A stretch of 64,000 nt of DNA from Polynucleobacter sp. AP-Kaivos-20-H2. Its GTDB lineage: Bacteria; Pseudomonadota; Gammaproteobacteria; Burkholderiales; Burkholderiaceae. The notes below the pieces were generated by a model, which saw only the letters and a list, made by a program, of their open reading frames with translations, was not told the origin of the DNA and ran no database searches. Made by a program: the position numbers and the translations under genes. Below are positions 27,796 through 36,934 of the stretch, in pieces. The stretch's first letter is position 1. Every line of letters starts with the position of its first letter. The stretch lies in the NCBI RefSeq assembly GCF_018882215.1, contig NZ_JACVOX010000001.1, positions 791,902-855,901 on the forward strand, given 5' to 3'.

Positions 27796-28728
27796 CTAAA
27801 GAGCGAAGAACTGCCCTATTTCTAGATTCAATTCTTTGGCCAGCTCAGCACCAGTTACCTTGCCCGCAGCGCCTTTAGCCTTCAGGACCTCAATCTGTCC
27901 ACCATGGCAGGTGATGAAGAATGAATCAAGCGTAATCTGCGTTACTTCCCCAGGCTTGCCTTTGACGGCGCCAAAGGTTGCAGCAACGTGCTTATGGCAA
28001 TCGTAGATCTGTACTTTTTGTTCGCCAAACTTAGTCCATGCACCAGGCGCAGGATTGCTTGCGCGAATCAGGTTATAGATTTGACTGATGTGTGTTGCCC
28101 AATGAATCTGTGCTGCATCAACACCAAACCAACCTTCATAGTTCGCTTGTGATTCATCTTGAACAATTTCTTGATGCTTACCAGCAACTACCAGATCAGC
28201 AGTCTCTAGGAGAGCTTGCACACCGATCGGGAATAAATGATCAAAGTAGATCTTGCCTAATGTGTCATTAGGCCCTATAGCTACTTCTTTTTGCACAATC
28301 ACTTCGCCTTCATCCAAACCATCGGATGGGCGGAAGATAGTTAAGCCTGTTTTCTCTTCACCTAATGCAATTGCCCAATTGATAGCGCTCGGACCGCGAT
28401 ACTTGGGCAGCAAGGATGGATGATATTGAATCGTGCCGTGCTTTGGAATCTTACAAAGCTCTTGCGGTACAAACTGAAGCACATAAGCCATTACACAGAT
28501 GTCTGCATTGGCGTCAATCATGGCTTGGGCAGCCTCTGGGCCCTTCAGTGAAGCGAACTGCAAGGGGGTTAAACCCCTTGCTAACGCCGCTTCTTTTAAG
28601 ACTTCGGGTTTGCTTGATTTAGGATTGTCGGGTGGGCAGAAAACAGCAACGACTTCATCGCCGCGATCTAAAAAGGCTTCTAATGACGCTTTGCCAAAAT
28701 CCGCACTCCCAATTAAAGCAACCCGCAT
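27796..28728 (-). CDS. Formyltransferase resembling the 10-formyl-THF dehydrogenase hydrolase domain
   Basis: A two-domain protein of 310 residues: a formyltransferase domain (about 1-200) and an Fmt-C-like domain (about 205-300). The active-site stretches are HGTIQYHPSLLPKYRGPSAIN and SDGLDEGEVIVQKE, with the catalytic His and Asp of the family in place. The HPSLLPxxRGxSAINW pattern, YEG after the linker, IHWATHISQIYNLIRASNPAPGAWT and the fold ending are closer to the N-terminal domain of animal ALDH1L1 (10-formyl-THF dehydrogenase) than to Fmt, where Asn106-x-His is normal; here Asn is Gln. It starts one base after the formyl-CoA transferase frc2, so it may move formyl between formyl-CoA, folate and water. 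Its reaction is unproven. Confidence 0.75.
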   Translation of the reverse strand: MRVALIGSADFGKASLEAFLDRGDEVVAVFCPPDNPKSSKPEVLKEAALARGLTPLQFASLKGPEAAQAMIDANADICVMAYVLQFVPQELCKIPKHGTIQYHPSLLPKYRGPSAINWAIALGEEKTGLTIFRPSDGLDEGEVIVQKEVAIGPNDTLGKIYFDHLFPIGVQALLETADLVVAGKHQEIVQDESQANYEGWFGVDAAQIHWATHISQIYNLIRASNPAPGAWTKFGEQKVQIYDCHKHVAATFGAVKGKPGEVTQITLDSFFITCHGGQIEVLKAKGAAGKVTGAELAKELNLEIGQFFAL

Positions 28729-28729
28729 C

Positions 28730-29977
28730 TTAGATCACCTTATCATGACGAAGAGAAATCAATTCATCGGTTGAGTAACCTAACTCACTGAGAATCTCAT
28801 CAGTATGCTCACCGAGTAATGGTGAACGAGTCACATCAGTTGGGCTATCAGACATCTTGATTGGGTTACCAACAGTGAGGTACTTGCCACGAATTGGATG
28901 ATCTACTTCAACTACAGTACCAGTGGCACGTAATGCAGGCTCCTCAGCAATTTCTTTCATAGACAGAATTGGGCCACATGGAACATCATACTTATTCAAT
29001 ATATCCATCACCTCAAATTTACTCAGGGTCATAGTCCATTTTTCGATCTCACCAAAAATTTCCATGAGATGTGGCAAGCGCGCCATTGGGGATGCAAAAC
29101 GTACATCCGTAATCCAGCTTTCATGGCCGATTACTTTGCAAATCGCTTCCCATACCGGGGCTTGTACCACTACATATATGTACGCATTTGGATCTGTTTC
29201 CCAACCTTTGCACTTCACAATCCAGCCCGGCTGACCACCGCCAGAAGCATTGCCAGCACGAGGTACAGCATCACCAAACTCGCCATTTGGGTACTGTGGA
29301 TACTCTTGCATCGTACCGTTACGCTCTAGACGCTGTTGATCACGCAATTTGACGCGGCACAAGTTCAATACTGCATCTTGCATAGCTGCCAATACTTTCT
29401 GACCACGGCCAGAGTGAGTACGTTGGTATAGAGCTGTAACAATACCAAGCGCTAAATGCAAACCGGTTCCGCTATCGCCAATTTGTGCGCCTGTGACCAT
29501 TGGAGGGCCATCATCAAAACCTGTAGTTGATGCAGAACCGCCTGCGCATTGCGCTACGTTCTCATACACTTTGCAATCTTCGTAGGGACCAGGGCCAAAA
29601 CCTTTTACTGAAGCCATGATCATCATTGGGTTGAGCTCTTGAATACGCTCCCAAGAAAATCCCATGCGATCGAGTGCGCCTGGTGCAAAGTTCTCCACCA
29701 ATACGTCGCACTCCTTAATCAGGCGCTCCAGAATTTCTTTACCCTTTTGGGTTTTAGTATTCACAGTAATGGAACGCTTGTTATGGTTCAACATCGTGAA
29801 ATACAAACTGTCTGCATCAGGAATGTCGCGCAATTGACCGCGCGTTGCATCACCTTCGCCTGATTTTTCTACCTTGATCACATCCGCACCAAACCAAGCC
29901 AGTAACTGAGTACAGGTTGGGCCTGATTGAACGTGCGTAAAGTCGAGGACTTTGATCCCCTCTAGTGCTTTTGCCAT
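28730..29977 (-). CDS. frc: Formyl-CoA transferase paralogue 2 (CaiB/BaiF class III)
   Basis: Class III CoA-transferase of 415 residues, close to E. coli YfdW and Oxalobacter Frc: [55 protein letters not shown], the catalytic Asp in [13 protein letters not shown], and a glycine loop [10 protein letters not shown]. Position 48 is Gln as in YfdW, not the Trp of Oxalobacter Frc. The first Gly of the usual GGGG loop is replaced by Ser, and the region before the loop is shorter than in Oxalobacter. It differs enough from the paralogue at 30629-31879 to have another acceptor or donor acid. It has a good AGGACT ribosome site and is coupled to the formyltransferase gene. Confidence 0.88.
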
Positions 29978-30049
29978 GATTTAAGTCCTAATAAGAATGA
30001 AAATTTTGAATTAAGGAATTTTACCAGTGGGATAAAGAGAAAGATTGGG

Positions 30050-30070
30050 TGTGCCCTATTTTTGGGCACA
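30050..30070. repeat. Perfect hairpin between PAS gene and frc2
   Basis: TGTGCCC and GGGCACA pair with a seven-base T-rich loop. It lies 25 bases after the PAS stop codon and 73 bases before the frc2 start. No T-tract follows on the minus strand, so it may be a weak terminator, an mRNA-stabilising stem or a binding site for the frc2 promoter. Confidence 0.4.
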
Positions 30071-30094
30071 GACGCCGTCTAAGACTGTATATAG

Positions 30095-30523
30095 CTAGAT
30101 TTGGGCATCTTCAAGATCGGCAATCCTTTTTTTAAGCGTCCTTTCTTGAGCAAAACGCTCGGTTTCATCCCGAATGGTTGCCACAATCCCATTGACCTTC
30201 TGATGTTCATCAAAAAGCATGCCAACTGTAAAAGCGATTGAGAGCATGCCACCGCTCTTGTGGAGAGCTGGCACTTTTAACAACGATGAGCCATAACGCG
30301 TGATACCAGTTTCCATGGACTTACGGCAGCCCTCGTTATGGCGATGGCGTTGACGCTCCGGAACAATTAAATCCAAAGTATTACCTAAAGCCTCCGACTC
30401 GGAGTAACCAAAGATACGAGTAGCTGCGGGATTCCACAGCACAATTTTTTCATGTGCATCGACAACGATGATCGCATCTCCAACACACTCTACTAATTGA
30501 ACTAAATCAATATTGGTATTCAT
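30095..30523 (-). CDS. Stand-alone PAS domain protein
   Basis: A 142-residue protein consisting of one PAS domain (about 8-125) and a short charged coiled-coil tail. It reads VECVGDAIIVVDAHEKIVLWNPAATRIFGYSESEALG, with the PAC motif near GIVATIRDETERFAQER. There is no kinase, GGDEF, EAL or helix-turn-helix part, so it must act through a partner. PAS domains of this FixL/NifL-like type bind haem, flavin or small acids; the sequence does not show which. It lies between the two formyl-CoA transferase genes, after a strong terminator for frc1, so it probably has its own promoter. Its role in oxalate sensing is only suggested by position. Confidence 0.8.
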   Translation of the reverse strand: MNTNIDLVQLVECVGDAIIVVDAHEKIVLWNPAATRIFGYSESEALGNTLDLIVPERQRHRHNEGCRKSMETGITRYGSSLLKVPALHKSGGMLSIAFTVGMLFDEHQKVNGIVATIRDETERFAQERTLKKRIADLEDAQI

Positions 30524-30573
30524 AGGATCAGTCTACAGACTTTTTCATTAAGTGATTTACTATTTATTCTGAC

Positions 30574-30603
30574 AATAAAAAAGGCGCCCACCAGGAGCGC
30601 CTT
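30574..30603 (-). terminator. Intrinsic terminator of oxc-frc
   Basis: AAGGCGC (30581-30587) pairs with GCGCCTT (30597-30603). Read on the minus strand the stem is followed by TTTTTTATTG, the form of an efficient Rho-independent terminator. It lies 26 bases after the frc1 stop and separates oxc-frc1 from the PAS gene. Confidence 0.88.
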
Positions 30604-30628
30604 CAATTCATAGCGATAATTATCGTTA

Positions 30629-31879
30629 TTAGACTGCTTTAGCTGTATGTAACTTAGCGATGTCATCAGCGCTATAGCCAAGGTCAGCCAATACTTCGTC
30701 AGTGTGCTCACCCAATACTGGTGATGGACCAACTTCGATTTCCAAATCAGAGAACTTGATTGGGCTACCGATAGTCAAATACTTACCACGTACTTTGTGG
30801 TCCACTTCAACAATAGAACCGCTCTTACGCAAGTCAGGTGAATTAGCCAACTCTTTCATAGAGAGAACTGGAGCACATGGAATATCGAACTTGCGGAGAA
30901 TGTCCACAGCTTCGTATTTAGTCTTGTCTTTGAGCCAGTCTTCAATCGTTGCGAAGATGTCAAAAATCTTGTCTTGACGAGCTTCAGCAGTCATGTACGC
31001 TGGATCAGTTGCCCACTCTGGCTTACCAATCGCACGAGTAATTGGCTCCCAAGCATGACCTTGAATTGTGAAGTAGATGTATGCGTTTGGATCTGTTTCC
31101 CAGCCCTTACACTTCAACACCCAACCTGGCTGACCGCCACCACCAGCGTTACCGCCACGTGGAACTACGTCAGTGAATGAACCGTGTGGGTATTGTGGGT
31201 ACTCTTCCAAGTAACCAATCTTGTCCAAACGTTGTTGGTCGCGCAACTTCACGCGGCACAAGTTCAATACAGCGTCTTGCATTGAGCAAGAAACTTTTTG
31301 ACCTTTGCCAGTTTTTTGACGTTGCATCAAAGCTGTCAAGATACCGATTGCCAAGTGCATACCAGTATTTGAGTCACCTAAAGCAGCAGCAGAAACAGTA
31401 GGAGGACCATCCCAGAAACCAGTTGTGGAAGCAGCACCACCAGCGCACTGAGCAACGTTCTCATACACTTTTAAGTCTTCGTATGAGTGGCCATCGCTAA
31501 AGCCTTTAACAGAAGCCATGATCATTTTTGGGTTCAATTCTTGGATACGCTTCCAAGAGAATCCCATACGATCCAAAGCGCCTGGGCCAAAGTTCTCAAC
31601 CATGACGTCAGAAGTTTTGATCATCTTCTCTAAAACTTCTTTACCTTCTTGAGTCTTAGTATCCAAAGTCAAAGAGCGCTTGTTACCGTTCAACATTGTG
31701 AAGTACAAAGCATCTGCACCCGGAATATCGCGCAATTGGCTACGAGTTACGTCGCCAGAACCTGGACGCTCTACTTTGATAACGTCAGCGCCGTACCAAG
31801 CCAACAACTGAGTACATGCAGGGCCTGCTTGTACGTGTGTGAAGTCAATAATGCGAATACCTTCTAATGGTTTAGTCAT
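30629..31879 (-). CDS. frc: Formyl-CoA:oxalate CoA-transferase
   Basis: Moves CoA from formyl-CoA to oxalate, giving oxalyl-CoA for the decarboxylase and releasing formate. Its 416 residues match YfdW almost position for position: [55 protein letters not shown], catalytic Asp in [15 protein letters not shown], and the complete glycine loop [12 protein letters not shown] that covers the aspartyl intermediate. Gln at position 48 is the YfdW type. It follows oxc by 78 bases on the same strand with a strong AAGGAG site, and is ended by an intrinsic terminator. It is the canonical partner of oxc. Confidence 0.95.
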
Positions 31880-31957
31880 GTGTGTTTCTCCTTAAGTCTT
31901 TCTTGTTTACTTCTGAATGTAGTCTAAAAATATTAACGTTTTATTACTCAGTATTTC

Positions 31958-33667
31958 TTACTTTTTGGCAGCTGCTGTGGATGGGTTTAAGTTTGTTAAA
32001 CGTCCACTCTCAGTACCTGCAGTTTCATCAATAACAGCATTGATGAGGGCTGGTTTACCGGCAGCAATCGCTTCTGTTAACGCTGCTTCTAATTCTGCTG
32101 GGGTTGTTACGTAGTAACCAACACCACCAAATGCTTCAATCATCTTGTCGTAACGAGCATCTTTAACGAACACAGTTGGCGCAACATCAGCACCACCAGT
32201 TGGGTTAACGTCAGTGCCGCGGTATACGCCGTTGTTATTAAATACAACCGTCGTAATTGGTAGGTTGTAACGGCAAACTGTTTCCAATTCCATACCGCTA
32301 AAGCCAAATGCACTGTCGCCTTCAACTGCAACTGTTGGCAAGCCGCTAGTAACGGCGGCGCCAATTGCATAACCCATACCGATACCCATAATGCCCCAAG
32401 TACCAGAGTCAAAACGCTTACGTGGCTTGTACATATCAACGATGGCACGGCAATAGTCGAGTGTATTTGCGCCTTCGTTTACCAAGTTCACATCTGGGTT
32501 CTTCTTAATCACATCACGAATCACGCGTAACGCGCCATGGAAGTTCATTGGGTTTGCTTCTTTAGCCAATGTCTCGGCCATCTTGGCTAGATTCTTATCT
32601 TTCTTCTCAGTGATCGCGGCAATCCACTCAGCGCTTGGCTTAGGAACAGCGGAGATACCCTTCAAGAGTTCGCCAACGCATGAACCGATGTCACCAATCA
32701 ATGGAGCAGCGATTTGTACGTTGCTATCCACTTCGTTTGCTTGAATATCGATTTGGATAAATTTCTTAGGCTCTTTGCCCCAAGTCTTACCTTTACCGTG
32801 TGCCAGCAACCAGTTTAAACGTGCACCAACCAATAACACTGCATCAGCTTCAGCCAATACAAATGAACGCGCTGCAGAAGCAGATTGTGGGTGATTGTCT
32901 GGCAATAAACCTTTAGCCATAGACATCGGCAAGTAAGGAATACCTGATTTTTCAACCAGATCACGAATCTCTTTATCAGCTTGAGCATAAGCAGCGCCCT
33001 TACCCAAGAGGATCAATGGACGCTTAGCGCCCTTCAACACATCTAATGCACGAGCAACTGCATCAGCCGCTGGGATTTGACGAGGAACTGGATCGATTAC
33101 CTTGAAAATGGATTTCTTAGCTTCATCAGCAGGCATTGTTTGAGCAAGCAACTGGGCTGGCAAATCTAAATACACGCCACCTGGACGACCAGAAACGGCA
33201 GCGCGGATTGCACGAGCAAAACCAATGCCGATATCTTCAATGTGGTTAATACGATAGGCAGCTTTGCAATATGGCTTCGCTGCGTTGAGCTGATCCATCT
33301 CTTCGTAGTCACCCTGTTGCAAGTCAACGATTTCACGTTCGCTTGAACCAGAGATCAAAATCATTGGGAAGCAGTTCACAGTTGCATTAGCAAGTGCTGT
33401 CAAACCGTTCAAGAAACCAGGAGCAGAAACAGTCATACAGATACCTGGCTTTTGCGTCATGTAACCAGAAATAGCGGCAGCATTACCTGCGTGTTGTTCG
33501 TGACGGAAGCCGATAAAACGCAGACCTTCTGCTTGCGCTAAACGGCATAAGTCAGTAATTGGAATACCAACGAGGCCGAAAATAGTATCGAGATCGTTTG
33601 CTTTCAGGGCGTCAATGACGAGGTGAAAGCCATCGGTTAATTGTGTGTTTTGATTATCAGTTGTCAT
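31958..33667 (-). CDS. oxc: Oxalyl-CoA decarboxylase
   Basis: A thiamine-diphosphate enzyme that splits oxalyl-CoA to formyl-CoA and CO2. Its 569 residues have the three-domain ThDP layout: the N-terminal domain with the catalytic Glu in [56 protein letters not shown], a central domain [17 protein letters not shown], and the cofactor motif [16 protein letters not shown]...[23 protein letters not shown] and the GDY/EEMDQ segment separate it from acetolactate synthase. The leader is about 117 bases from a candidate start site; no clear Shine-Dalgarno precedes the ATG. It heads oxc-frc and is probably controlled by the Crp/Fnr protein encoded upstream. Confidence 0.96.
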
Positions 33668-33790
33668 AGAAATTTATATAGAAATTGCGGGCTTGCTCTT
33701 GTAGAGCCAATGCAATTTAGCTTTCGCTAACGTCTCCAATGTAGTTATAAATCGCATAACGGGTTTTGTGTCCCGCTTAGGCTGAGATGA

Positions 33791-33833
33791 ATATTAGGCT
33801 TGGAGGAGAGGTTCATCATTGACTTCGGTCAAT
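33791..33833 (-). promoter_or_regulatory. Candidate oxc promoter with FNR-like operator at -41.5
   Basis: A perfect 16-base palindrome, ATTGAC-TTCG-GTCAAT (33818-33833), has the TTGAC-N4-GTCAA form bound by FNR-type members of the Crp/Fnr family. A TAATAT -10 box lies at 33796-33791 on the minus strand, predicting a start near 33784. This puts the palindrome centre at -41.5, the exact class II activation position. There is no -35 hexamer, as expected for an activator-dependent promoter. The element lies between the regulator gene and oxc. I infer that the neighbour binds here. Confidence 0.65.
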
Positions 33834-33871
33834 TTCCCCCTAAATCCTGTAATTACGGGCGGTTTTACCCC

Positions 33872-34489
33872 TTAAACAAAGAGCTCTTTATGCTTCGTTT
33901 TAAGGCGACTTAGGGTCTCAGGAGAGAGATTGAGGTAGGCCGCCAGCTCCTTCTTTGGGAGAAGCTCGAACAAATCCTCATATTTACGCAAGAAACGCTC
34001 TACCCGGCCTGGAGCATCGAGCATATGCAAGGTAATGGTGTGGGCCATGATTTCACTCATCAGGCGCATGACTTCGAACTCAAAGCTCTCTTTGAGGGGT
34101 TTGTGCTCCTCAAGGAATTCAGCCCACTTCTTCATAGGCATCCTAGCAACACGGGCCTTAGTGACGCACGCAATACTGTAAGGGGCAGCCGTTTTTAAAC
34201 GCCATGCGGCATAGCTTGTTTCAATATCTTTTTCGATGGCAAAACGCAAAATCATCTCTTTGGCATCCGCGCTCGAAACAATCCGCTTCAGAATGCCATC
34301 CAAAACGAAGTACTGCTCCATCTGGTGATCACCCTGGTGTAGCAAGATTTCTGATTTTTTGAGGTCCGAAATTTCTAAATGGCGCTCTAAATCAGCCATT
34401 GCTGAGGGATCCAAGCTTTTTAAGACCGAGTTTTGACTCAACTGCAGACGAATCAGGTTTTTTTCGGGATGCTTATCTAATACGGTCAT
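33872..34489 (-). CDS. Crp/Fnr family transcriptional regulator
   Basis: A cyclic-nucleotide-binding-like sensor domain (about 20-130), a dimerisation helix (about 130-155) and a C-terminal winged helix-turn-helix with the recognition helix SPETLSRLKTK. The E-T-L-S-R there corresponds to the E-x-x-S-R of FNR, which reads TTGAT/TTGAC half-sites. Only one cysteine is present (SIACVTK), so the FNR iron-sulphur cluster is absent and the inducer must differ. The cAMP-binding phosphate cassette is also not recognisable. ATG at 34489 (205 residues) is preferred over TTG at 34504 because AAGGA precedes it. It is upstream of oxc on the same strand, with a matching palindrome in the gap. Confidence 0.9.
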   Translation of the reverse strand: MTVLDKHPEKNLIRLQLSQNSVLKSLDPSAMADLERHLEISDLKKSEILLHQGDHQMEQYFVLDGILKRIVSSADAKEMILRFAIEKDIETSYAAWRLKTAAPYSIACVTKARVARMPMKKWAEFLEEHKPLKESFEFEVMRLMSEIMAHTITLHMLDAPGRVERFLRKYEDLFELLPKKELAAYLNLSPETLSRLKTKHKELFV

Positions 34490-34584
34490 GAATCCTTGCT
34501 CCAAGACCCTCTATTGTAGGCTTTTTTAACCCTCAAAGCCTTGGATTCCCGCTTAGCGAACTTCAAATCCGCTAGAATAATGAG

Positions 34585-34772
34585 GTCGTGGTGCTTTATT
34601 GCAGTGCAATAAAGTTAAACGGGAAACACTAAACGTGTGCTGCCCCCGCAACGGTAGGTAAATGCGCCCTTTTTGGTTTATTTGGGGCGTCAGGAATCTG
34701 ACAAAGCCACTGTGCGCGTCAATCGCATGGGAAGGCCAGATTCTGATATTTACTAGCCCGGATACCGGCCAA
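34585..34772 (+). ncRNA. Cobalamin (B12) riboswitch aptamer
   Basis: Conserved elements appear in the right order: GTGGTGC start, ACGGGAA (34619-34625), the GCTGCCCCCGCAACGGT core (34638-34654), GGAAGGCC, and the B12 box AGCCCGGATACCGGCC (34755-34770). This is the adenosylcobalamin-type aptamer. It precedes a TonB-dependent receptor gene, as btuB riboswitches do, and should lower receptor production when B12 is plentiful. A TAGAAT at 34573-34578 may be the -10 box. The 440-base gap 34490-34930 holds only this element and the hairpin described next. Confidence 0.95.
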
Positions 34773-34871
34773 GATAGGTGGAATTTTGCGGACGGGGATC
34801 TTCGCGCGCCAAGAAAGCGCTAAGTCTCTCGATACTGCGCCCAATTGACGCCTGAACTCCTGCACGGGAAA

Positions 34872-34922
34872 TTCTGTTCGACCCAGCTAACGGGGAGGTT
34901 AGCTAGGCAATCGATAACAGAA
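34872..34922 (+). promoter_or_regulatory. Two-tier hairpin before btuB start, likely expression platform
   Basis: An outer stem TTCTGTT/AACAGAA (34872-34878 and 34916-34922) encloses an inner perfect stem AGCTAAC/GTTAGCT (34885-34891 and 34898-34904) whose loop is GGGGAG. The structure ends eight bases before the ATG at 34931, and its 3' arm includes the only nearby purine-rich stretch. No T-tract follows, so control of translation rather than termination is the likely output of the riboswitch. Confidence 0.5.
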
Positions 34923-34930
34923 AGTGAAAC

Positions 34931-36934
34931 ATGAAACAGCAGTTCAGCAGTAAATTAAGCGCCCTAATCTGTGGCGCCTCATTCTTTTTTAGCGCAACAG
35001 CAAACTCACAAAACTCTGCGAATGTTTCTGTGGTCAACACCATGGATCCAGTTTTGGTAACCGCAAATCGTGCACCAACCTTAGCAAACAATGTTTTGGC
35101 TGACTATGACTACATCGGGCCAGAAGAAATCGCTCAAGCAGGTCAAACTAGCTTGGTAGATTTACTGCAGAGACAACGCGGCATTGAAATTACTAATGGA
35201 CTCGGTGCCGGGGGCGCAGGCGCAAGCATCTTTTTACGTGGCACCTCTAATGCGCAAAGTTTGGTGCTAGTGGATGGCGTTCGCTCTGATTCTGGTTTTA
35301 ATGGGGGGCCTACCTGGGAAACTATCCCGCTCCCGCTAATTGACCATATTGAAGTCATTTTTGGACCTCAAAGCAGTCTGTATGGAGCAGATGCAATCGG
35401 CGGCGTTATTCAAATCTTTACCAAAGCAGGTGATGGACCCGCCAAAGTAAGCGTATCAACTGGTTACGGCACCTACGGAACCAGTGTGAGCGATGCAAGT
35501 ATTTATGGATCCACTGACGGCGAACAAAAAATTCGTTACTCACTAGGCGTGAGCGAAACCCTCTCCACTGGCTTTAATACCGTGGCTTCCAACAATCCAT
35601 TCGGTCTAGCAGCAATGAAAACAGGCTACGTACAAAATGGGGTTACAGGCAAACTCTCACAAGAGTGGGCCATAGGGCAGGTATTGGGCTTTCAAATGTT
35701 GCAGAGCCGTATGAATACACAGATGCCTGGTTTTAATACATTTGATTACTTTAACGGTCCTTATCCATTACCCGCTTCTGCTCAGCAAACTCAAAATGCA
35801 GTTTCACAAATGGGTATCTACACCGTATATTCAAAAAATCAAATTACTGAAATTTGGAAGAGTTCTTTACAAGCATCCATTTCAACTAACTATGGGCAGT
35901 CAATCCAGCCTGCAAGCGTATATAGCCCAACGTATAACCCCTACACTCAGACCAAGCAAAATATTTACACTTGGCAAAATGACATTACCCTTGGGTCAGA
36001 CCTATTGCAATTAGTGGGAGAGCGCAGAGTACAAAAGGTGGATACCTATCAATACAACTATGGCACAGACTATAACTACAACCTCTTACCAAGCGCATTT
36101 AGCCAAACCCGCGATACCAATTCTGTAGCAGGCTCATATCAGCTAAAACGTGGTGACCACTTGGGTAATGTGTCGCTACGCAATGACAACATCAGTGGCT
36201 ATAGCCCACAAACCACAGGCGCAATTTCCTACGGTTATTTCTTAACAAAAGAATGGCGAGCCAATCTTAACTACGGAACTGGATTTAGGGCGCCCACTTT
36301 TAATGATCTGTACTACCCTGGCTATGGAAATCCAAATCTTTTGCCAGAAAAAAGTAAAAACACTGAAGCTGGGTTGCACTATGATGCGCGTACTTATGAG
36401 GCTCACGTAGTTGCCTATACCAATACCGTTTCAAACTTAATTCAATTTGGCTCCAACGGCTGTAACTCCAGTCAAATCAGTCAAAGCGGTGGATGTGCTT
36501 CGAATGTAGGTGTAGCCAGAATTACCGGCATATCGTTTGGTGGTGCGTCTCAAATTGGTCGCTTTATGCTCAAAGGCTCGTTAGATCAGCAAAACCCAGA
36601 GAATGTGACCGAAGATAAGCAACTAACCAAAAGGGCGCGTACTTTTGGAAACGCCTCCGTGGAATACAACTACAACAAGTTAGTTGCAGGACTTGGCGGC
36701 ACTTTTTCCGGGCAAAGGCAGGACATATCTGGAACTGACACCTCCGGAAGTGCTTATAACGGCTCAATGGGCGGGTACTCAATCTTCAATCTTTATTCTA
36801 GCTACGAGCTTGAAAAGAATTGGACGCTTTTTGCACGCTGGAATAACATCACCAATAAGCAATATCAGCTCACTTATGGCTATAACACCATGGGATCTAA
36901 CGTATTTGTAGGCCTACGTTACGCTATGAAATAA
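34931..36934 (+). CDS. btuB: TonB-dependent outer-membrane receptor, BtuB-like (cobalamin)
   Basis: A 667-residue outer-membrane receptor. It has a signal peptide (about 1-26, ending ATANS-Q), a TonB-box-like segment DPVLVTANR near residues 38-46, a plug domain with DLLQRQRGIEI, FLRGTSNAQSLVLVDGVR and YGADAIGGVIQIFTK, and a beta-barrel rich in alternating aromatic residues ending with FVGLRYAMK, whose last residues are less aromatic than usual. VTANR and the IGGVIQI plug resemble BtuB, and the upstream cobalamin riboswitch makes a corrinoid the expected ligand. It is somewhat longer than E. coli BtuB (614). No BtuCDF genes are next to it. An in-frame TGA just upstream fixes the ATG at 34931. 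Confidence 0.9.
   Translation: MKQQFSSKLSALICGASFFFSATANSQNSANVSVVNTMDPVLVTANRAPTLANNVLADYDYIGPEEIAQAGQTSLVDLLQRQRGIEITNGLGAGGAGASIFLRGTSNAQSLVLVDGVRSDSGFNGGPTWETIPLPLIDHIEVIFGPQSSLYGADAIGGVIQIFTKAGDGPAKVSVSTGYGTYGTSVSDASIYGSTDGEQKIRYSLGVSETLSTGFNTVASNNPFGLAAMKTGYVQNGVTGKLSQEWAIGQVLGFQMLQSRMNTQMPGFNTFDYFNGPYPLPASAQQTQNAVSQMGIYTVYSKNQITEIWKSSLQASISTNYGQSIQPASVYSPTYNPYTQTKQNIYTWQNDITLGSDLLQLVGERRVQKVDTYQYNYGTDYNYNLLPSAFSQTRDTNSVAGSYQLKRGDHLGNVSLRNDNISGYSPQTTGAISYGYFLTKEWRANLNYGTGFRAPTFNDLYYPGYGNPNLLPEKSKNTEAGLHYDARTYEAHVVAYTNTVSNLIQFGSNGCNSSQISQSGGCASNVGVARITGISFGGASQIGRFMLKGSLDQQNPENVTEDKQLTKRARTFGNASVEYNYNKLVAGLGGTFSGQRQDISGTDTSGSAYNGSMGGYSIFNLYSSYELEKNWTLFARWNNITNKQYQLTYGYNTMGSNVFVGLRYAMK

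Follow-up and report, generated by a model that had tools for sequence, protein, structure and literature searches.

Which protein reads the perfect inverted repeat lying between a gene for a Crp/Fnr-type protein and oxc, the gene for oxalyl-CoA decarboxylase, and to what effect, is the question raised by the window analysed here, that is, the whole 64-kb stretch of DNA. Comparison with relatives, some 200 of which keep the dyad, indicates that it is very probably the switch through which the neighbouring regulator would control oxalate breakdown. Oxalate serves as a pool of carbon in plants and fungi, and many kidney stones consist mainly of it. The finding supplies a candidate regulator, operator, promoter geometry and regulon for direct testing, and it sets a Crp/Fnr subfamily apart from both the FNR and the CRP sensing types. 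No dedicated Crp/Fnr regulator of the oxc/frc route was found in the open literature, a search with little coverage of subscription journals. The word “regulator” is absent from the passages available of two papers that discuss oxc/frc operons (PMC9476978, PMC12927642), while in the available part of a third oxc appears in a table of changed genes, within text devoted to YbdO, a LysR-type regulator of E. coli (PMC9068703).

The dyad and its gene cluster

Direct reading of the sequence confirms the perfect dyad that the initial annotation had placed between the two genes: ATTGAC-TTCG-GTCAAT occupies 33818–33833, with perfect 6-bp arms and its centre at 33825.5. The regulator gene and oxc stand in tandem, and their order on the minus strand is Crp/Fnr-type gene (34489–33872), dyad ATTGACCGAAGTCAAT (33833–33818), TAATAT (33796–33791) and oxc (33667–31958). 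Spacing from the TAATAT predicts a start near 33784 and thereby a dyad centre at -41.5, as had been proposed. The features are as follows.

33872–34489, minus strand: Crp/Fnr-type regulator gene, 205 aa, ATG at 34489; CNB domain and HTH without C-terminal wing
33818–33833, no strand: putative operator dyad ATTGAC-N4-GTCAAT, centre 33825.5 = -41.5; arms exact in 146 of 155 genus genomes
33791–33796, minus strand: predicted -10 hexamer TAATAT for oxc; of the 146 genus genomes with an exact dyad, 143 have TA...T at this spacing
33784, minus strand: predicted transcription start (+1), from the -10 spacing only
33668–33784, minus strand: predicted oxc 5' leader, 117 nt, with one weak long-range pairing
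31958–33667, minus strand: oxc, oxalyl-CoA decarboxylase (PRK09259 and TIGR03254 equivalogs above cut-off)
30629–31879, minus strand: frc, formyl-CoA transferase (TIGR03253 above cut-off)
30095–30523, minus strand: small PAS protein, nearest to DosP/FixL haem-PAS domains
28730–29977, minus strand: second frc-type CoA transferase (TIGR03253 above cut-off)
27796–28728, minus strand: Fmt-type formyltransferase, below equivalog cut-offs; a relative in 36 of 40 regulator loci

The window contains a single copy of the exact 16-mer pattern, whereas the looser TTGA-N6-TCAA is found four times against 2.3 expected; in the 2.27-Mb genome, TTGAC-N4-GTCAA occurs twice and TTGAY-N4-RTCAA in 32 places. The dyad by itself is thus weak evidence, because the relaxed pattern is near chance in the window and the exact arms are met twice in the genome. 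The description of the palindrome as FNR-like stands, but the site differs from the canonical FNR box, TTGAT-N4-ATCAA, in having C/G as fifth base of the arms.

The predicted oxc leader is long and has no clear ribosome-binding site just 5' of the ATG; GGAGA lies about 70 nt upstream of the ATG, accompanied by small hairpins and one weak conserved long-range pairing. A structured leader, suspected from apparent compensatory changes, was rejected after RNAalifold on 69 leaders kept a single weak-energy long-range pairing of 5 bp. An Rfam scan of 28000–36000 returned only a cobalamin riboswitch (RF00174, 73.1 bits, 34572–34787, plus strand), which precedes a TonB-dependent-receptor-like gene divergent from the regulator.

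Conservation in the genus and the order

The genus set comprised 186 Polynucleobacter genomes, with the regulator matched in 150 (E ≤ 1e-3) and oxc in 153 (E ≤ 1e-150); the DNA before oxc, or beyond the end of the regulator gene, was read in 155, namely all 153 with oxc plus G180 and G311. The initial annotation had named absence of the palindrome from oxc-containing relatives as grounds for dropping its proposal; TTGAC-N4-GTCAA is exact in 146 of the 155, a conservation far beyond chance. Each of the ten arm columns is invariant across 141 distinct sequences, and the four spacer columns reach 86, 75, 98 and 99%, the spacer occurring in eleven versions. Some positions outside the arms are conserved as well, which counts against the operator reading: two spacer columns stand at 98–99%, and the flanking columns -3, -2, +14 and +15 of the 14-mer are 100% conserved (consensus GGGGAAA before it, TGATGA after). 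The TA...T located 22 bp downstream of the exact dyad in 143 of 146 genomes is mostly TAATAT or TAAGAT.

The nine exceptions comprise seven genomes without a regulator match, all carrying a more distant oxc (73–77% identical), G183, in which a decayed dyad lies beside a partial oxc (match over residues 1–361 only), and G277, with one arm base changed. Three genomes (G179, G182, G185) retain the dyad with in-frame stops in the regulator, and a fourth (G180) retains it with a stop in the regulator and no match to oxc; from the sequences, this pattern looks like recent decay of the whole unit.

A family-level search (15 of 150 genomes; 13 of the genus, two weak) first suggested that the regulator is confined to the genus, a view overturned by an order-level profile search, which found it at E ≤ 1e-10 in 54 of 300 genomes, in 22 of 134 genera and 12 families, with orthologues 54–69% identical. 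oxc was matched at E ≤ 1e-200 in 51 of these 300 genomes; 46 carry both genes, eight only the regulator and five only oxc (Fisher p 5e-40, kinship ignored). In each of the 50 regulator-bearing genomes outside the genus, one or more TTGAY-N4-RTCAA dyads precede oxc, frc, an fmt-like gene or the gene for a replacement ThDP enzyme.

Across differing gene arrangements, the dyad goes with the target gene and not with the gene for the regulator. Three genomes (G322, G328, G376) have no dyad between the regulator and its neighbour, and their dyads stand at oxc on another contig (L315, L307, L306); two of them (G328, G376) also carry one about 500–800 bp before a frc-type gene 4–5 kb from the regulator, with TA...T at 22 (L250, L248). 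When the regulator is convergent with oxc (L257, L261, L262), dyads still precede oxc and fmt, and when frc and oxc flank the regulator, they can precede both, as in L221, L233, L254, L260 and L278. TA...T was scored at an offset of 22 or 23 in 42 order-level sites, hand-chosen and oriented towards their target, and in 20 more left out of those; it is present in 37 of the former and 15 of the latter, against 1.1% of random positions. Ten of the 62 sites do not have it: in L245 the first of its two, in L257, L261 and L262 the two oxc sites each, and those of L306, L307 and L315.

Twelve regulator-free oxc loci (five of the order, seven of the genus) contain no TTGAY-N4-RTCAA within 250 bp. Farther out, at about 370 bp before oxc, one regulator-free genome, G281 (L096), carries TTGAT-N4-ATCAA. 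In G496, where oxc and the regulator lie on separate contigs, a pair of imperfect copies, TTGAT-N4-GTTAA, is found at oxc (L309). At the level of sequence, then, regulator, site, -10 and spacing are conserved together, and they are absent together. The comparison supports the earlier suggestion that the dyad belongs to the neighbouring regulator and that this regulator is dedicated to genes of oxalate, and also C1, metabolism.

The regulator and the reading of the dyad

The regulator of the window has, as had been noted, an ETLSR recognition helix and a single cysteine (in IACVTK). The helix reads ET[LM]SR in 47 of 47 orthologues, while the cysteine is not kept: no column holds one in more than 6 of the 47, and 25 proteins have none, so the four-cysteine iron-sulphur feature of FNR is missing, as the initial annotation had held for the window protein. 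A cNMP-binding-type beta-barrel (PF00027) is matched in all 47 at E ≤ 0.001, and the full winged HTH (PF13545) in 14 at the same threshold; all 47 end 5–23 residues after the E-x-x-S-R motif. The regulator has no C-terminal wing, which is unusual for a DNA-binding Crp/Fnr protein. The cAMP-contact feature of CRP is missing too: the contacts Glu72, Arg82 and Ser83 align in an ungapped sequence alignment with Ser/Ala91, variable residue 101 and invariant Pro102. With no conserved cysteine and altered cAMP contacts, the protein shows the sensing signature of neither FNR nor CRP. The lack of cysteines speaks against an Fe-S cluster as oxygen sensor and names no ligand. Invariant residues include His6, Arg81, Thr90, Trp95, Pro102, Met147, His149 and His154.

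A structure model from the 47-sequence alignment (pLDDT 92.3, pTM 0.87) places the C helix at 129–155, followed by the HTH helices; an earlier candidate built from 18 close sequences was poor (pLDDT 58.7) and was set aside. The best matches of the 47-sequence model are tied between GlxR 3r6s (Z 20.6, 2.4 Å, 193 residues) and the FNR variant 9qmc (Z 20.4, 2.3 Å, 194 residues). FNR (E. coli / Aliivibrio fischeri) shares with the regulator the CRP/FNR fold, seen in holo-FNR variant 9qmc, the E-x-x-S-R helix, a near-identical half-site and, presumably, class II geometry, whereas the regulator lacks the N-terminal cysteine cluster and the wing, appears to serve a dedicated regulon and has TTGAC in place of the TTGAT consensus of FNR. 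CRP and GlxR share the fold and the Pfam cNMP_binding domain, but the cAMP-contact residues are replaced in the regulator, and the DNA half-site of CRP/GlxR is presumably different from that of the dyad. The best sequence match among solved structures is 3dn7, a cyclic nucleotide-binding regulatory protein of Cytophaga hutchinsonii (profile E 8e-15), whose 194-residue chain stops just past the aligned recognition helix and so looks wingless too, although its similarity to the regulator is remote only; we know of no regulon or operator for it. FixK2 and DNR, which recognise FNR-like dyads, are members of the Crp/Fnr group that lack an Fe-S cluster, and FixK2 4i2o matches the model at Z 17.6; they control micro-oxic and denitrification genes, whereas the targets here are genes for oxalate, formyl-CoA and formate. 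The regulator is a wingless Crp/Fnr one-component protein that bears neither known sensing signature and appears dedicated to oxalate/formate metabolism.

We put at roughly 85% the probability that the neighbouring regulator has the dyad as its operator and acts as a class II Crp/Fnr activator of the oxc-frc cluster, dedicated to oxalate/formyl-CoA metabolism. A one-component Crp/Fnr-type dimer would bind TTGAC-N4-GTCAA at -41.5, overlap the -35 region and recruit sigma-70 RNA polymerase, giving class II activation of the oxc-frc cluster. Activator dyads centred on -41.5 are the class II geometry of Crp/Fnr proteins, and the predicted -10 places the dyad centre near this position in 143 of 146 genus genomes and, at 22/23 bp, in 52 of 62 order-level sites. 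The same sites before oxc, frc, fmt-like, formate-tetrahydrofolate ligase and TctC genes in relatives would reflect the dedicated role, and the regulator would respond to a small molecule of the pathway. We infer physical binding, activation rather than repression, the extent of the operon and the small-molecule response.

An unlikely alternative is that the regulator, when bound to the dyad, acts as a repressor or both activates and represses, for example with release by a pathway metabolite. The sign of regulation is not readable from sequence, a repressor could also sit at -41.5, the site lies between two genes in divergent loci, and two sites precede one gene in L245, L257 and L262; on the other hand, the position favours activation, and the fixed 22/23 bp to the -10 across differing gene arrangements corresponds to class II activator geometry.

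Less probable still is that the dyad serves the oxygen sensor FNR of the genome itself, the neighbouring regulator doing something else. The genome does encode an FNR-type protein, which combines a cluster of cysteines at its N terminus with an E-x-x-S-R helix, and a single base in each arm separates the dyad from the FNR box. However, G012, a single-contig genome rated 100% complete, keeps regulator, dyad, -10 and oxc with the regulator as its sole cNMP-domain protein (E ≤ 0.001), the C/G of the arms is kept in 146 of 155 genus genomes with TTGAT-N4-ATCAA in none of the 155 at this place, and presence of the dyad tracks the neighbouring regulator, not oxc. Because of G012 and this pattern of presence and absence, the neighbouring regulator is the most likely reader of the dyad.

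An RNA hairpin in place of an operator, such as a terminator behind the regulator gene whose plus-strand loop would be UUCG, is scarcely credible: there is a 6-bp stem with a TTCG loop between two tandem genes, but the arms do not covary in the genus (exact in 146, uncompensated change in G277, variable loop), no T run follows on the minus strand, and the same sequence precedes targets in divergent and distant loci, mostly at a fixed distance to the -10.

The reading of the dyad as an operator of a class II activator can be carried further, although the broader proposal falls somewhat short of even odds. It holds that this previously undescribed wingless Crp/Fnr subfamily is the master one-component oxalate sensor of the order, binding one of the metabolites of the pathway (oxalate, formate, oxalyl-CoA or formyl-CoA) in a remodelled cNMP pocket and switching on TctC, oxc or the replacement ThDP enzyme, frc, the fmt-like gene and formate-tetrahydrofolate ligase, and hence uptake, decarboxylation and one-carbon entry, through TTGAC-N4-GTCAA. 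The idea that an oxalate-derived metabolite is what the regulator responds to, already ventured in the initial annotation, is a guess.

Further candidate targets and metabolic setting

Additional sites were picked from dyads seen around the regulator or oxc; they document places at which sites stand and say nothing about the frequency of such genes without one. A dyad precedes formate-tetrahydrofolate ligase in eight loci (L251, L255, L259, L266, L271, L272, L273, L316), the protein of L271 being identified by NCBIfam and Pfam and the other seven by similar N termini, and TA...T is found at 22/23 in seven of them, the exception being L259. At nine loci the dyad stands in front of the gene for a TctC-type transporter receptor (L241, L247, L249, L253, L254, L256, L263, L264, L278), identified by Pfam in L253 and by similar N termini in the other eight; none of the nine has TA...T at 22/23 in the direction of the gene, and AT-rich hexamers such as AAGAAT or TAGAAT were seen by eye at 23–24. 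No TctC start was recognised in L240, L267 and L268, listed together with these sites.

The finding also points to a replacement ThDP enzyme in place of oxalyl-CoA decarboxylase at the same regulated locus. Seven of the eight regulator-bearing order genomes without oxc at the cut-off encode, beside the regulator and frc, a ThDP enzyme 26–28% identical to Oxc. The replacement loci are L239, L240, L241, L245, L246, L247 and L249, with the enzyme between regulator and frc. Four of these enzymes were scanned, and the best of the 25 top families listed were acetolactate synthase and 2-hydroxyacyl-CoA lyase models, below cut-offs; the enzyme is possibly a different oxalyl-CoA decarboxylase or a 2-hydroxyacyl-CoA lyase.

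The Fmt-type formyltransferase, which travels with frc and the regulator, could hand the formyl group on from formyl-CoA to one-carbon metabolism. The small stand-alone PAS protein, encoded in the window between the two frc genes, has His62, with which the haem-ligand position of DosP presumably aligns, and this residue is kept in a 59% identical copy in L239 (9316–9729). An oxygen or gas input to the cluster is therefore possible, as a haem-PAS-like protein is encoded there. Growth on oxalate is not assured, because Polynucleobacter bacteria of the F10 lineage did not assimilate it, according to the part of the report available (PMC3308952), and the role of the oxalate genes may be to yield energy or to detoxify oxalate instead of supporting growth.

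Elsewhere in the genus, exact TTGAC-N4-GTCAA counts per genome are close to those of a reversed control pattern (0–8 against 0–6, 61 genomes). Fourteen stretches with other exact sites were taken from the matches listed, and no second recurrent target comparable to oxc was seen among them: five sites lie at the same place inside a CoA-transferase gene (L321–L325), three in other coding frames (L328, L329, L334), one is intergenic (L330) and three stand beside a hairpin with a T run (L331–L333). In the remaining two, from two genomes of the genus (L326:1456 and L327:1536), TTGACTGCAGTCAA lies upstream of a gene with TATGAT at 22 bp, and this site looks like another Crp/Fnr class II promoter.
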